A DNA stretch of 64,000 nucleotides from Cytophagaceae bacterium ABcell3 (GTDB lineage: Bacteria > Bacteroidota > Bacteroidia > Cytophagales > Cytophagaceae): contig CP133159.1 in assembly GCA_030913385.1 (NCBI GenBank), forward strand, positions 3,804,584-3,868,583, in the 5' to 3' direction. The position numbers were made by a program, and so were the translations under genes. Of this stretch, positions 34,451-40,374 are shown one piece after another; position 1 is the first letter of the stretch; every line of letters begins with the position of its first letter. The notes beneath the pieces were generated by a model. That model was not told the origin of the DNA, searched no databases, and was given only the letters and a program-made list of their open reading frames with translations.

Positions 34451-34464
34451 TTAGATTAATCTAA
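34451..34464. promoter_or_regulatory. DtxR/MntR-type palindromic box
   Basis: TTAGATTAATCTAA is an exact 14-bp palindrome resembling the TTAGG-type operators of iron/manganese-dependent repressors. It lies 20 bp before a TATTTTTG box (34474-34481), where the -33 element should be, so metal-bound repressor would block transcription of the operon that begins with the DtxR-type gene at 34541. Confidence 0.7.
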
Positions 34465-34473
34465 TAAAATATG

Positions 34474-34481
34474 TATTTTTG
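34474..34481 (+). promoter_or_regulatory. -7 box of the metal-uptake operon
   Basis: TATTTTTG matches the TAnnTTTG -7 consensus; the -33 region (TTTTAG) overlaps the palindrome at 34451-34464. The first gene starts at 34541. Confidence 0.55.
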
Positions 34482-34540: not shown

Positions 34541-35218
34541 ATGAGTAACAGCAAATCAGTAACACTAAGCCATACAGAAGAAAATTACCTAAAAGCCATT
34601 TACCATTTATCAGAACATGGCACCAAAGAAGTAAACACAAATGCTGTTTCTGAGGTTTTGCAAACCAGACCTGCTTCTGTAAGTGATATGCTAAGAAAGC
34701 TGTCGGCAAAGAAAATGATCAATTATATTAAGTACCAAGGTGTAACAGTTACTGAAAATGGAAAAAAGGAAGCGCTTCAAGTAATCAGGAAACACCGTTT
34801 ATGGGAAGTGTTCTTGGTGGAAAAACTAAAATTCAACTGGGATGAAGTACATGAGATTGCAGAACAACTTGAGCATATCCAGTCCAAGTTGCTTATAAAA
34901 CGCCTGGACGAATTCCTTGGTTTTCCTTCATACGATCCACATGGAGACCCTATTCCTAATGAAGCTGGCGAATTTACTCCTAAGCCAAGAATAACCTTAT
35001 CAGAGGCAGAAGTAGATTCACCAAATGTGGTAGTAGGTTTAAAGGAAACCTCCTCCCCTTTTCTTCAATTTTTGGACAAAACAGGTATTTATATTGGCGC
35101 CAAAATTAAAATACTAGAACGTATCGCTTTTGACCAGTCACTTGAGATAACCATAGACGAAAACAAAACATTAAATGTGTCCAGTGAAGTAGCCAAAAAC
35201 ATTTATGTAACAGATTAA
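34541..35218 (+). CDS. DtxR/MntR-family metal-dependent regulator
   Basis: This 225-residue regulator starts MSNSKSVTLSHTEENYLKAIYHL; the frame opens 18 nt earlier, but this start fits the family better. A winged helix (about 5-70) is followed by a metal-binding/dimerisation domain (HRLWEVFLVEKLKFNWDEVHEIAEQLEH, with the conserved His/Glu ligands) and a C-terminal SH3-like FeoA domain (about 145-225). It should repress the ABC importer genes that follow when Mn or Fe is plentiful. Its stop codon overlaps the next ATG by one base. Confidence 0.9.
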   Translation: MSNSKSVTLSHTEENYLKAIYHLSEHGTKEVNTNAVSEVLQTRPASVSDMLRKLSAKKMINYIKYQGVTVTENGKKEALQVIRKHRLWEVFLVEKLKFNWDEVHEIAEQLEHIQSKLLIKRLDEFLGFPSYDPHGDPIPNEAGEFTPKPRITLSEAEVDSPNVVVGLKETSSPFLQFLDKTGIYIGAKIKILERIAFDQSLEITIDENKTLNVSSEVAKNIYVTD

Positions 35219-36177
35219 TGAGCAAACACATGAACCAGTTTATAAAGCTTTTATTGCCAGCTATATTATTTATAAGCATAGCCTCGTGTGACAGTCCTGA
35301 CGAGCGTAGGCAAATAACAGAAGAGGATGCCCCAGCGGCTGCCGCCCCTTCGCCCATTACCATCCTTACAACCACCAACCTTATTGCAGACGCTGTACGC
35401 CAAGTAGCTGGCGATGTAGCTGAAGTATCTTCGTTGATGGGTCCAGGGGTAGACCCGCACCTTTACAGGGCCACAGACAGGGACAGAAGACGTATTATGG
35501 AATCTGATGTAGTATACTATAATGGACTACACCTGGAAGGTAGAATGAGTGACATACTAGCAAAAACAGGTGCCAGGAAACCAGTAATAGCAGTAGCCGA
35601 GAAAATTGACAGGACTCAAATCATTTATCACGATAGGGTGGCAGACCCACATGTTTGGTTTGATGTCACCTTATGGAAAGAAGTTGTAAGTACTATATCT
35701 CAAGACCTGCAAGAAAGATTTCCCATTCATGCGCAACGATTTATAAATAATGAAGAAAACTATTTGGGCGTCTTAGATACGTTAGATCATTGGGCAAGAA
35801 CCGAAATAGGGTCAATTCCGAGACAACAGAGAGTGATGGTAACAGCACACGATGCGTTCAATTATTTTGGCAGGGCATATAATATTGAGGTAGAAGGCAT
35901 GCAAGGGCTCTCCACCCTATCCGACCTTTCTCTTGGAGAGGTTACTGAAATTGTCAGGATGCTTGTAGAACGAGAAATTAAAGCCGTTTTTGTAGAGTCG
36001 TCTGTTCCACAAAGCACAGTAGAGGCCGTAGTAGTAGGCGCTAGAGCAAGAGGTCACGATGTCCAAATAGGTGGTGAACTGTTCTCTGACGCCCTTGGAG
36101 AAGAAGGCACTCCCGAAGGCACCTATGTGGGCATGGTAGAACATAATGTCAGAACTATTACTGAAGCTTTAAAATAA
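35218..36177 (+). CDS. Metal ABC transporter substrate-binding lipoprotein (ZnuA/MntA/TroA type)
   Basis: This 319-residue lipoprotein of the cluster A-I binding-protein family has a signal peptide with lipobox ISIASC (Cys24). The metal-ligand regions are GVDPHLY, NGLHLEG and ADPHVW; the long backbone helix and VFVESSVPQ with GGELFSDALG complete the site. There is no His-rich loop, which argues for Mn or Fe over Zn. It is coupled to the regulator gene. Confidence 0.9.
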   Translation: MSKHMNQFIKLLLPAILFISIASCDSPDERRQITEEDAPAAAAPSPITILTTTNLIADAVRQVAGDVAEVSSLMGPGVDPHLYRATDRDRRRIMESDVVYYNGLHLEGRMSDILAKTGARKPVIAVAEKIDRTQIIYHDRVADPHVWFDVTLWKEVVSTISQDLQERFPIHAQRFINNEENYLGVLDTLDHWARTEIGSIPRQQRVMVTAHDAFNYFGRAYNIEVEGMQGLSTLSDLSLGEVTEIVRMLVEREIKAVFVESSVPQSTVEAVVVGARARGHDVQIGGELFSDALGEEGTPEGTYVGMVEHNVRTITEALK

Positions 36178-36244: not shown

Positions 36245-37033
36245 ATGATCATACATACCGAAAACCCGACAGTTGAGGTACACGACTTAACCGTAAGCTA
36301 TAATAAGAAGCCTGTCTTGTGGGGAGTAGACCTCACCCTTCCTGGCGGTATTTTGGGTGGAATCATCGGGCCAAATGGGGCGGGTAAGTCCACGCTTCTA
36401 AAATCTATCATGGGCCTGATACCGATCAGCAGTGGGTATGTTAAAATTGCCGGCGCCCCGTTAAATAAAAAGCGGGACCTAGTAGCTTATGTACCACAAC
36501 GCGAATCGGTAGATTGGGACTTCCCTGCTTCAGTAGCAGATGTGGTCATGATGGGAAGATACAATAAAACCGGCTTATTCGCCAGACCACGAAAAGCGGA
36601 CAGAGATGTAGTCAATGACTGTCTGGAAAAAACAGGTATGTCTGCGTATCGAGACAGGCAAATATCCCAACTTTCCGGTGGGCAACAACAGCGGGTGTTT
36701 CTGGCAAGGGCTTTGGCACAAGATGCCGACATCTACTTCTTGGACGAACCATTTGCCGGTGTAGATGCCTCTACAGAAGCAACCATTATAACGTTGCTTA
36801 GAGAAATGGCTGCTGCCGGAAAAACTATACTTGTCGTACACCATGACTTACAGTCCGCACAGGACTATTTTAACTGGATAGTACTGTTAAACATGCGCTT
36901 GGTCGCATCTGGCCCGACTCAAAAAGTGTTTACGCCAGATCTCTTACAAAAAACCTATGGTGGCACACTGACCGTACTATCCAAACTTGGAGACCTGCTG
37001 GCCAACCAAGAATTCCCTACCAGGGAAGATTGA
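36245..37033 (+). CDS. Metal ABC transporter ATP-binding protein
   Basis: This 262-residue ATPase has Walker A GPNGAGKST (42-50), signature LSGGQQQR (near 141), Walker B DIYFLDEPF and the switch VVHHDL. The motif YVPQRESVDWDFP is characteristic of Mn/Zn importer ATPases. It energises the two permeases at 38145 and 39469. Confidence 0.92.
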   Translation: MIIHTENPTVEVHDLTVSYNKKPVLWGVDLTLPGGILGGIIGPNGAGKSTLLKSIMGLIPISSGYVKIAGAPLNKKRDLVAYVPQRESVDWDFPASVADVVMMGRYNKTGLFARPRKADRDVVNDCLEKTGMSAYRDRQISQLSGGQQQRVFLARALAQDADIYFLDEPFAGVDASTEATIITLLREMAAAGKTILVVHHDLQSAQDYFNWIVLLNMRLVASGPTQKVFTPDLLQKTYGGTLTVLSKLGDLLANQEFPTRED

Positions 37034-37058: not shown

Positions 37059-38138
37059 ATGTCTTTCAAACAACATATACTGGTTTTTCTAATATGCTTC
37101 GGTGCTGTATTAGGGAACAACTATTTAACTTATTTACATTTTGATTACAGTGGTATACCAGATGCAGCCAGTTACCTAAAAATGGGAGAAGGAAACTTTG
37201 ATGTTACTGCAACCCACCGTTATAGAGTGGTGGTACCTGCACTGGCAGCGGCCACTGCCATACCTATCAACAAAGTCTATGAAAAACTGTGGCCCAACCG
37301 TTCGGAAAGCCAATGGCCACTAAAGTTTAGCTTTTACTTGATCAATTCCTTTTTGTTTTCCTTAGCCGCTTACCTCATTTTTTTAACATGCCTGGCCTAT
37401 AAAGCTTCTGTAATAAGCTCTTTAATTGCACTAATAGCTGTTATAAGCAGCAGATGGGTGCAAGTGATGGCTGCAATACCAATGACCGACAGCTTTTATT
37501 TGCTTGTCATTGCATTATCTGTTTATGGAATGAAAAAACAGTCGCCTGCATTGTTGGCGACCGCTATTGTTCTAGGGCCATTAGCCAAAGAGTCTTTCAT
37601 TTTCATTGCCCCAATCATATTATTTTACGGAAGGAACACTATTCCTTTTATCAAACAAGCCCCCCTTTTCGTTTTAGGAGGAATTTTGGCATTTGGCACA
37701 AGGCACCTGATTGACCTACATCTGACCATTGCCGCCACAGAGAGTCTTAACAACGCTTTTGCCCATTTCGAAAACTTCAAACACACCTTTTTCAGGCTGT
37801 TTTCCATTAGAGGAGCCGGTGAAATACTAAGTGTGTACAGTATCTTTTCTTTGATCATCTTCATAGGACTTACCGGAGGAAAGAATGAAAGAAATAAATG
37901 GATAAAGTATCTCGATGGCCCATGCCTATTCTTGCCAATAGTAATTATACTACACATGTTCCTTTCCACAGAAGCAGGGCGTATGATGTTTTTTGCCTCC
38001 CCAGTGGTTGCTGTAGTTATGGCGTTAATATTAGACAAACACAAAGCATTTACCCCATGGCAAAAACTGCAAAACACCCTTAATGGGGCTAATATCCATC
38101 TTAAAAACAATGACCCAAAACCTGTAGCAAAACTGTAA
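37059..38138 (+). CDS. Polytopic membrane protein of unknown function inside the metal operon
   Basis: This 359-residue protein starts MSFKQHILVF; an in-frame ATG at 36987 would overlap the ATPase gene by 47 bp and adds an unlikely segment. About nine to ten hydrophobic spans can be seen. Motifs include THRYRVVVPALAAA, PMTDSFYLL, GPLAKESFIF and EAGRMMFFASPVV, a layout that recalls GT-C/mannosyltransferase-like or other polyprenyl-linked membrane enzymes. It is not an ABC permease. It lies 25 bp after the ATPase gene and 6 bp before the first permease, so it is firmly in the operon; its role there is unknown. Confidence 0.75.
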   Translation: MSFKQHILVFLICFGAVLGNNYLTYLHFDYSGIPDAASYLKMGEGNFDVTATHRYRVVVPALAAATAIPINKVYEKLWPNRSESQWPLKFSFYLINSFLFSLAAYLIFLTCLAYKASVISSLIALIAVISSRWVQVMAAIPMTDSFYLLVIALSVYGMKKQSPALLATAIVLGPLAKESFIFIAPIILFYGRNTIPFIKQAPLFVLGGILAFGTRHLIDLHLTIAATESLNNAFAHFENFKHTFFRLFSIRGAGEILSVYSIFSLIIFIGLTGGKNERNKWIKYLDGPCLFLPIVIILHMFLSTEAGRMMFFASPVVAVVMALILDKHKAFTPWQKLQNTLNGANIHLKNNDPKPVAKL

Positions 38139-38144
38139 CATTGC

Positions 38145-39443
38145 ATGGATAAACTAATCACATTTTTATCACTGAGTGATCCCAATGTACGGTATGTCGT
38201 TATTGGCTCTACCCTATTGATGGCAAGTTCAGCAGTAGCGGGTTGCTTCACATTCCTTCGTAAGCGATCCTTAACAGGAGATGCCGTAGCGCATGCAGTA
38301 CTTCCCGGTATATGTCTTGCGTTTATGCTATCGGGTCAAAAAGATCCACTGATGCTGCTAATCGGTGCTTTTGCTACCGGATGGCTATCGCTCATTGCCA
38401 TGGATTTTATTAATGGGAAAACCAAACTCAAAGAAGACACCACCACAGGCCTGGTGCTATCAGTTTTTTTTGGTATAGGAGTTTTGCTTTTAACCATTAT
38501 TCAACAATCGGGAGCTGGCAATCAATCTGGCTTGGATACTTTTCTTTTTGGCAAAGCCGCTGCCATGAAAGAAAACGATTTGTTGGTGTTCGGAACAACA
38601 GGCTCTTTGATACTTCTCACAGTCATTGTCTTTTTTAGAGAATTGACCATTGTTTCTTTCGACCCAAATTTTGCCCGAGCCATAGGAATGCCCATCAGGT
38701 TGTACGAACTTATACTTACGACCATAACCGTTTTAGCGGTAGTTATTGGCATTCAAGCTACAGGGGTAGTATTAATGGCAGCCATGCTCATAAGCCCTGC
38801 CGCTGCCGCCCGGTTTTGGACACACAAGCTCCCTGTCATGATTTTGTTGGCAGCGATTATGGGTGCTTTTTCAGGCATTTCAGGAGCCTATATTTCTTAT
38901 GTGTACCCGACTATGCCTACCGGCCCCTGGATTGTTGTTATAATATCCCTTATTGCTTTGGGTTCATTTCTCCTAGCCCCTGGAAAGGGAATATTGGCAC
39001 GCTTGTCCAGACAAAGGGAAAACAGAAAAAAGATTATGGAGGAAAATGTGCTCAAGGTATTTTTCCACTTGGGTGAACCAGAGAAAGACTTTTTTAAACC
39101 ACGCACACAGGAAGATTTGTTAAACAAGAGAGATATGGACCGTAGCCAATTGAACAGCACCTTATACCGGCTAAAATCTGACGGATACCTAAAGCAGGAA
39201 AAAAACAAATGGATGCTTACCAATGAAGGGTTTGGGCACGGCAAAAGGGTTACCAGACTACACCGATTATGGGAAATGTACCTTTCGACGTATATGAACA
39301 TAGCGCCTGATCATGTACACGACGATGCAGAAACCATGGAACACATTATAACACCAGAACTTGAACAAAAACTAGAGCAGCAGCTTGGGTTCCCGTTAAA
39401 AGACCCACACGACTCAGATATACCATATAAAGGAAGTTTTTGA
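38145..39443 (+). CDS. Metal ABC permease fused to a DtxR-type metal-sensor domain
   Basis: This 432-residue fusion has an ABC-3 permease in residues 1-285, with eight or more spans and the family motif LTGDAVAHAVLPGI (about 43-56). Residues 300-432 form a soluble winged-helix-like segment (LNKRDMDRSQLNSTLYRLKSDGYL) followed by a DtxR metal-binding/dimerisation domain (RLHRLWEMYLSTYMNIAPDHVHDDAETMEH ... LGFPLKDPHDSDIP). The latter lines up with the free regulator at 34541 (HRLWE, EVHEIAEQLEH, LGFPSYDPHGDPIP). The ligand residues are kept, so the tail may sense cytoplasmic metal and gate the permease, or still bind DNA. Confidence 0.9.
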   Translation: MDKLITFLSLSDPNVRYVVIGSTLLMASSAVAGCFTFLRKRSLTGDAVAHAVLPGICLAFMLSGQKDPLMLLIGAFATGWLSLIAMDFINGKTKLKEDTTTGLVLSVFFGIGVLLLTIIQQSGAGNQSGLDTFLFGKAAAMKENDLLVFGTTGSLILLTVIVFFRELTIVSFDPNFARAIGMPIRLYELILTTITVLAVVIGIQATGVVLMAAMLISPAAAARFWTHKLPVMILLAAIMGAFSGISGAYISYVYPTMPTGPWIVVIISLIALGSFLLAPGKGILARLSRQRENRKKIMEENVLKVFFHLGEPEKDFFKPRTQEDLLNKRDMDRSQLNSTLYRLKSDGYLKQEKNKWMLTNEGFGHGKRVTRLHRLWEMYLSTYMNIAPDHVHDDAETMEHIITPELEQKLEQQLGFPLKDPHDSDIPYKGSF

Positions 39444-39468: not shown

Positions 39469-40374
39469 ATGGATGAATTTTACATTATACTTACGGGTGC
39501 GCTTGTAGCTATTTCCTGTGGCCTTACAGGTTGCTATCTTATTTTAAGAAGAATGGCCATGATCGGAGATGCTATTTCCCATGCTGTTTTGCCTGGCATA
39601 GTTATAGCATTTTTACTTACCGGCACCATTCAGTCCTTGCCAATGCTGATCGGAGCAGGTCTGGTTGGTGTTTTAAGTACCATGCTCATTGAGTTCATCC
39701 ACCGAAAAGCAAAAGTACAGACCGATGCGGCCATTGGGATCACTTTTACCTTCTTATTTGCTGTGGGCATTATACTTATATCAGCTTTTGCAAGCAATGT
39801 CGACATCGACCAAGATTGTATTCTGTTTGGCGAAATTGCGTTTATACCACTCGACACTACCGAAATTTTTCCTGGATTTGAAGTACCTTTGGCAGTGCTG
39901 ACTTTAAGTTTTACACTGCTGGTGAATATTGCTTTTATAACATTAGGGTACAAGCAGTTATTTATCACCACCTTTGACCCAGCTTATGCTTCAGCGATAG
40001 GGATTTCAGCAAGTGTTTGGCACTACCTGCTTATGGGAGCCGTATCATTTACCACAGTAGCTTCTTTTGAAGCTGTTGGTGCTATATTGGTAGTAGCATT
40101 TTTAGTGGCGCCCCCTGCTACCGCTTATTTACTGACCGAAAGCTTCAAGACCATGTTGGCACTGACAGTACTTTTCGGTATCATTGCATCAGCAGCCGGT
40201 TATGCTTTGGCCACTGCCATTAACGGTTCAATTGCCGGAGCCATGACTACTGTAGCAGGAGCCTTGTTCTTGGCAGCCTTCATTTTTACACTGATAAAAA
40301 AAAGAAACAGAACACAAATTACAGAGGTTATAGACAAACCTGATTTGACAGAAAGCCTCAAAGCCGAAGCATAA
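39469..40374 (+). CDS. Metal ABC transporter permease
   Basis: This 301-residue ABC-3 family permease has about eight spans. The family motif MIGDAISHAVLPGI lies near residues 31-44, and a FDPAYASAIGI motif near 166. It pairs with the fused permease at 38145 and the ATPase at 36245 to form a Mn/Zn/Fe-type importer. It has no C-terminal sensor domain. Confidence 0.9.
   Translation: MDEFYIILTGALVAISCGLTGCYLILRRMAMIGDAISHAVLPGIVIAFLLTGTIQSLPMLIGAGLVGVLSTMLIEFIHRKAKVQTDAAIGITFTFLFAVGIILISAFASNVDIDQDCILFGEIAFIPLDTTEIFPGFEVPLAVLTLSFTLLVNIAFITLGYKQLFITTFDPAYASAIGISASVWHYLLMGAVSFTTVASFEAVGAILVVAFLVAPPATAYLLTESFKTMLALTVLFGIIASAAGYALATAINGSIAGAMTTVAGALFLAAFIFTLIKKRNRTQITEVIDKPDLTESLKAEA

Follow-up and report, generated by a model that had tools for sequence, protein, structure and literature searches.

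A DtxR-type tail on an ABC permease of Cytophagaceae bacterium ABcell3 as a candidate metal sensor of the transporter

The importer operon and its fusion protein

The window, which is the whole 64,000 nucleotide stretch of DNA analysed from Cytophagaceae bacterium ABcell3, carries an operon with the order DtxR, binding protein, ATPase, unrelated insert, permease with a DtxR-type tail and second permease. The Pfam and NCBIfam matches are consistent with a Mn/Fe/Zn substrate for this type of importer. The features of the locus are:

34451-34464, no strand assigned: perfect palindrome TTAGATTAATCTAA, 76 nt ahead of the ATG of the free DtxR, whose operator it is predicted to be (from the sequence)
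34474-34481: Bacteroidota-type -7 box TATTTTTG, just downstream of the palindrome (found by eye)
34541-35218, + strand: free DtxR/MntR regulator, 225 aa, with PF01325, PF02742 and FeoA (Pfam) and the conserved recognition helix RPASVSDMLRKL
35218-36177, + strand: periplasmic metal-binding protein of the ZnuA/TroA family (PF01297, E 1.2e-72)
36245-37033, + strand: ABC ATPase, nearest to manganese/iron ATP-binding proteins, scoring under the NCBIfam cut-offs
37059-38138, + strand: polytopic membrane protein of unknown family, an insert foreign to the conserved operon (no Pfam match above cut-off)
38145-39443, + strand: fusion of permease and DtxR tail, 432 aa
38145-38975, + strand: ABC-3 permease part of the fusion, residues 1-277, ending with its last transmembrane helix (PF00950, model helices)
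38991-39074, + strand: residues 283-310, basic, predicted as one continuous helix from the last transmembrane helix to alpha-1 of the putative sensor and bearing N301 (model)
39141-39179, + strand: residues 333-345, helix at the DNA-recognition position, hypervariable in relatives (alignment, model)
39219-39425, + strand: metal-binding/dimerisation domain, residues 359-427, with ligand positions H373, E377, H392, E396, E399 and H400 (PF02742, conservation)
39469-40374, + strand: second ABC-3 permease, tail-free (PF00950, E 2.3e-52)

The fusion is an intact ORF, in which the ABC-3 permease family PF00950 matches residues 14-276 (E 9e-67) and Fe_dep_repr_C (Pfam: PF02742), the metal-binding and dimerisation domain of DtxR, matches residues 359-427 (E 6.5e-22). 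PF01325, the DNA-binding family of DtxR, was absent from the fusion in the Pfam search. An ABC-3 permease N-terminal to a DtxR-type domain is the architecture of the YtgCR type. The locus thus agrees with an earlier note on this DNA, which had described a permease with a DtxR-type tail and a free DtxR in one operon and had quoted the motifs HRLWE and LGFPxxDPHxxDIP correctly. In the closed 5.1 Mb genome the fusion and the free DtxR are the only proteins with PF02742.

The other operons compared showed no homologue of the inserted membrane protein at the position between ATPase and permease. In three other operons (L038, L040 and L041) a protein of 713-728 aa, annotated as DUF5916 in L038, sits instead between the fusion and the second permease.

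Distribution and ancestry of the fusion

Out of 148 Bacteroidota genomes sampled with a PF02742 search, 12 have the canonical fusion and the same order of genes. Scanning named genomes with the tail alignment added 80 more, the best 80 loci of that scan, and together these make up the 92 fusions studied here. The scan relied on the patterns HRLWE[LV]YL and [PGD]DHVH.., and those alignment columns are biased in the scanned set, which does not apply to the 12 fusions found by Pfam. The earlier note had suspected similar fusions in related genomes, and since the same fusion and gene order recur in the survey and in the further named genomes, the fusion is not a chance event.

The usual order is DtxR, SBP, ATPase, permease with tail and permease, and a DtxR gene lies within the same locus in 69 of the 92 cases. 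Among 17 further genomes without a same-strand DtxR nearby, 15 encode a free DtxR on the opposite strand or at another place in the genome. Altogether, a free DtxR accompanies the fusion in 84 of the 86 assessable loci or genomes, with six loci outside this count; the two fusion genomes in which no free DtxR was found are of unestablished completeness. In the 148-genome survey all 14 genomes with a fusion have a free DtxR. Two of these 14 stand apart from the canonical 12; in them a DtxR that includes a FeoA domain is joined to an orphan permease. Orphan permeases about 495 aa long, each with a fused DtxR module that includes FeoA, are encoded at L032:4762-6252, where the FeoA match is weak, and at L034:4307-5791; neither has adjoining importer partners, and both genomes contain free DtxRs.

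The best 80 loci of the scan belong to Bacteroidota, Chlorobiota, Kapaibacterium and one record labelled 'Armatimonadetes', with no chlamydial fusion among them. The operon of the Armatimonadetes record (L130) is nearly identical to that of a Chlorobiota MAG (L131). Its label is probably wrong, because the search of its GTDB phylum gave genomes, with the same coordinates, that are also part of the Bacteroidota survey. Among the best-covering plasmid records examined, no fusion with a metal domain was found.

In a phylogenetic tree, tails and free DtxRs form separate, supported and long diverged clades. The possibility that the tail is a recent duplicate of the neighbouring DtxR was rejected on this ground. 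The only 'free' row to group with the tails is L128, a fusion in truncated form.

The predicted operator of the free DtxR

The palindrome at 34451-34464 is the sole TTAGAYTNRTCTAA in the whole genome. Its general form, TTAG-N6-CTAA, is found upstream of 59 of 83 operons, compared to 0.78 expected from first-order Markov sequences. It also precedes operons which start with the binding protein and have their DtxR located elsewhere. The half-sites resemble those of the DtxR box. Because the conservation of TTAG-N6-CTAA and that of the free DtxR match, we infer from the sequences that the free DtxR binds this motif. The operons of Pontibacter (L059, L065, L066, L068, L075, L083 and others) mostly lack the motif, and their free DtxR has the usual recognition helix; a different form or position of the operator is likely there.

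The metal site and fold of the tail

The earlier note had remarked that the ligand residues seem kept. The positions of DtxR H79, E83, H98, E105 and H106 (H77, E102 and H103 in MntR) are identical in all 92 aligned tails, and this identity also holds in the 12 tails from the Pfam search, which are free of pattern bias. At the C102/E99 position, 80 tails have Glu and 12 have Asp. The alpha-1 motif EEN.LK is kept, with Asn at the position of DtxR M10 and MntR D8 (N301 in the window), which is also the residue of most free DtxRs in these genomes. PF02742 was detected in 54 of 54 tails.

A model of the tail, built from a 54-sequence alignment with no template, has a pLDDT of 90.8. Its top PDB match is DR2539 bound to DNA (Z 18.4, 134 residues), with further matches to DtxR, IdeR and MntR; the model has both the winged helix and the metal/dimerisation fold. 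The tail-specific residues DHVH and TPELE are located in the metal/dimer domain.

In the full-length model (pLDDT 89.1) the last transmembrane helix spans residues 259-277, and the helix at 283-310 runs unbroken from the linker behind it into alpha-1. The tail is predicted to lie on the cytoplasmic side, because the linker is basic (positive-inside rule). An internal start that would yield a free tail was rejected, as Met 298 is not conserved in its alignment column.

The recognition helix

In the 67 genomes that have both proteins, two recognition helices are on average 0.34 identical when taken from tails and 0.69 when taken from free DtxRs, a gap of 0.35 (bootstrap CI 0.30-0.39). The corresponding values for the metal domain in the same genomes are 0.69 and 0.73. 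Within Pontibacter, the recognition helices have an identity of 0.56 in tails and 0.99 in free DtxRs, while the metal domains of both reach 0.89, as does the permease. At positions 39, 40, 42 and 43 (DtxR numbering, transferred by the alignment) the entropy is 2.9-3.3 bits in tails and 0.5-1.1 bits in free proteins. The stretch with positions 39-43 takes in P39 and Q43 of IdeR, residues probed by solved variants. PF01325 is annotated in 51 of 51 free proteins and in 5 of 54 tails, where the matches are weak.

Tails retain the hydrophobic core of this helix, and their winged helix is therefore still expected to fold. From alpha-2 to the wing the net charge is +5.1 in the tail and +2.5 in the free protein. 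Given this more basic winged helix, the tail may be capable of weak, nonspecific or diverged DNA binding. It is nevertheless probable that in this clade the tail is not a sequence-specific DNA-binding repressor.

The earlier note had offered two mechanisms, gating of the importer by cytoplasmic metal and DNA binding by the permease at the membrane. The latter is disfavoured, because the recognition helix of the tail is unconserved and that of the free regulator is conserved, and gating is the better supported of the two. The note had named an alignment in which both metal ligands and recognition helix are unconserved as evidence against its view; in the alignment made here the metal ligands are conserved and the recognition helix is not.

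Shortened tails

In four operons (L177-L180) with the order DtxR, SBP, ATPase, permease and permease and with TTAG-N6-CTAA, the match of the permease tail stops at the winged helix and the metal domain is lost. The free DtxR and the operator persist there despite this loss. L181 has a similar tail, with no DtxR match in the stretch examined. A comparable stub consisting of the winged helix only is found in Halomonas sp. PA16-9 (L052:3483-4589), with its operon on a 1.8 Mb replicon. As the metal domain is lost in L177-L181 and L052, DtxR-like repression that depends on metal cannot come from the fused part of these proteins. Importers of this type can therefore do without the metal sensor.

Comparison with known systems

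The architecture of a permease fused to DtxR is itself already known. Chlamydia YtgCR (CT069/CTL0325) is such a fusion in the operon ytgABCD, and YtgR, which is cut off from YtgC, represses in an iron-dependent manner (PMC5599777; PMC7755916; PMC6504234). A passage of a review mentions orthologous permease-DtxR fusions in 11 bacterial phyla, credited to Thompson et al. 2012 (PMC5599777). The window shares with YtgCR an ABC-3 permease with a C-terminal DtxR domain, conserved metal-coordinating residues (PMC5599777) and the order binding protein, ATPase, permease with DtxR and permease, apart from the one unrelated ORF before the fusion in the window. In contrast to the chlamydial system, the operon in the window opens with a separate free DtxR that matches the operator, and the fused recognition helix is unconserved in this class, a comparison made with YtgCR as described in the literature. 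Judged by its sequence, the tail lacks the conserved DNA-reading helix expected of a YtgR-type repressor, and we do not file the fusion as one although it shares the architecture.

The tail could still work like YtgR if, released by proteolysis or at the membrane, it bound the promoter of the operon and repressed it together with metal. The match in architecture and gene order to ytgABCD, whose YtgR is cleaved from YtgC and represses, speaks for this, as do the winged-helix fold, the metal site and the basic charge that the tail retains. We regard such an autorepressor as unlikely, since the recognition helix of the tail is hypervariable even within one genus in which that of the free DtxR is 99% identical, the single conserved operator family suits the free DtxR, and a dedicated DtxR is nearly always present.

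With the repressors of the DtxR/MntR family (DR2539, IdeR, ScaR, SloR and MntR) the tail has in common its fold, as seen in the match to DR2539, and the set of metal ligands. Unlike these repressors, it is tethered to a permease, has no conserved DNA-recognition helix and no FeoA/SH3 domain, and carries Asn at the M10/D8 position, the last feature being shared with most free DtxRs of these genomes. PgMntR of Porphyromonas gingivalis, with twin FeoA domains, binds its promoter (PMC4805248). It is likewise a Bacteroidota protein of the DtxR family with extra domains and a link to a metal transporter operon, but it is not fused to a permease. TroABCD-TroR, SitABCD and MntABCD belong to the same importer family, with two permeases in Tro and Sit and a DtxR-type regulator gene in Tro; however, TroR is a separate protein and the window has an additional fused copy.

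The ABC importers MetNI and ModBC are inhibited via fused substrate-binding domains located on the ATPase (PMC10710835). Similar to the C2 domain of MetNI and to ModBC, the tail is a C-terminally fused, putatively cytoplasmic domain for which binding of the imported substrate and a slowing of transport are proposed. It differs from them in its unrelated fold and in its position on the permease, and inhibition by the tail is a proposal. In the literature searched, which took in few of the subscription papers, we found no description of a metal site strictly kept together with DNA reading given up and a free regulator devoted to the operon.

Proposed role of the tail

In our best reading the tail is neither a second repressor nor a membrane-bound DNA-binding protein. 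We propose, with a probability of roughly 50%, that it is a repurposed metal sensor which controls the activity of its own transporter in a metal-dependent manner, similar to trans-inhibition. The proposal builds on the fusion, the fold, the conserved ligands, the lost conservation of the recognition helix, the shared operator and the co-occurrence with a free DtxR, all of them observed in sequence or model. Beyond ligand conservation, we infer each step of the mechanism, including metal binding by the tail and the gating of transport by it.

The operon would encode an ABC importer of the Mn/Fe type with two metal controls, one on transcription and one on activity. For transcription, the metal-loaded free DtxR would bind TTAGATTAATCTAA and repress the operon. 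For activity, the DtxR-fold tail on one of the permeases would serve as cytoplasmic metal sensor, and imported metal would fill its site once cytoplasmic metal is high. The filled site may then pull alpha-1 and its N301 onto the metal/dimer domain, in the manner of DtxR. This movement could reach the transporter because alpha-1 and the linker behind the last transmembrane helix form one helix; it would travel along residues 283-310 to the transmembrane helix or to the neighbouring ATPase. As a result, the transporter would be slowed or locked at high cytoplasmic metal.

Several points stand against a sensor. The two permeases are different, which gives one tail per transporter, yet DtxR domains act as dimers. 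Tails without the metal domain (L177-L181, L052) exist, and the trans-inhibition domains of MetNI and ModBC are on the ATPase and not on the permease. Finally, YtgR of Chlamydia, which has the same architecture, binds DNA (PMC5599777, PMC6504234).

A more doubtful role is one in which the tail would pair with the free DtxR via the shared dimerisation domain, keep it at the membrane and couple the level or activity of the transporter to transcription. In its favour, tail and free DtxR share one kind of dimerisation domain and almost always occur in one genome, usually in one operon, and DNA reading could be dispensable for a tail whose only task is pairing. The domains of tail and free protein, however, fall into long diverged clades, and the interface may differ, as the tail-specific DHVH and TPELE are in the metal/dimer domain. 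Least probable is that the tail is the structural or decaying remnant of an old repressor fusion, whose function has been taken over by the free DtxR, so that its only remaining task is to stabilise or dock the transporter: the drift of the recognition helix and the operons with only a winged helix (L177-L181, Halomonas L052) would suit it, but the metal ligands are invariant across wide divergence in the full-length class, and in Pontibacter metal domain and permease are equally conserved (0.89 vs 0.89), unlike what decay would leave.

A fuller form of the proposal of a metal sensor acting on transport is put forward tentatively: a DtxR repressor domain may have become a dedicated allosteric sensor of an ABC importer, with DNA reading lost and the metal switch kept and coupled via one helix to the last transmembrane helix. 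One metal would then be sensed twice, in transcription and in transport.

A parallel in Feo operons and significance

The same theme may occur in the Feo system. Operons with a free DtxR, a membrane-anchored DtxR-like protein, a split FeoB and VIT1 are present in L045-L050 (e.g. L045:3315-4340), L003-L007 and L021. The DtxR-like protein has one N-terminal transmembrane helix and, in L045, for which Pfam was run, PF02742 and two FeoA domains without PF01325. The split FeoB consists of a FeoB_N gene and a Gate/FeoB_C gene, with the Feo domains checked on L045. In these operons, which are of a second importer type, a membrane-bound module resembling DtxR again accompanies a free DtxR. The single transmembrane helix of the anchored proteins ends in a P.(K/R)G-like motif, like the last helix of the permease. 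In the tree the anchored proteins are monophyletic and not joined to the permease tails, and the idea that they are truncated permease fusions is unsupported for this reason.

So far, permease-DtxR fusions have been discussed via Chlamydia, as the source of a repressor. The full tail, the tail with only a winged helix and the chlamydial tail offer contrasts for testing. If it is true that a large class of Bacteroidota proteins kept the sensor and dropped DNA reading, they would include a Mn/Fe importer with direct feedback from internal metal, and the tail would be a clear example of a transcription factor converted to a transporter domain.
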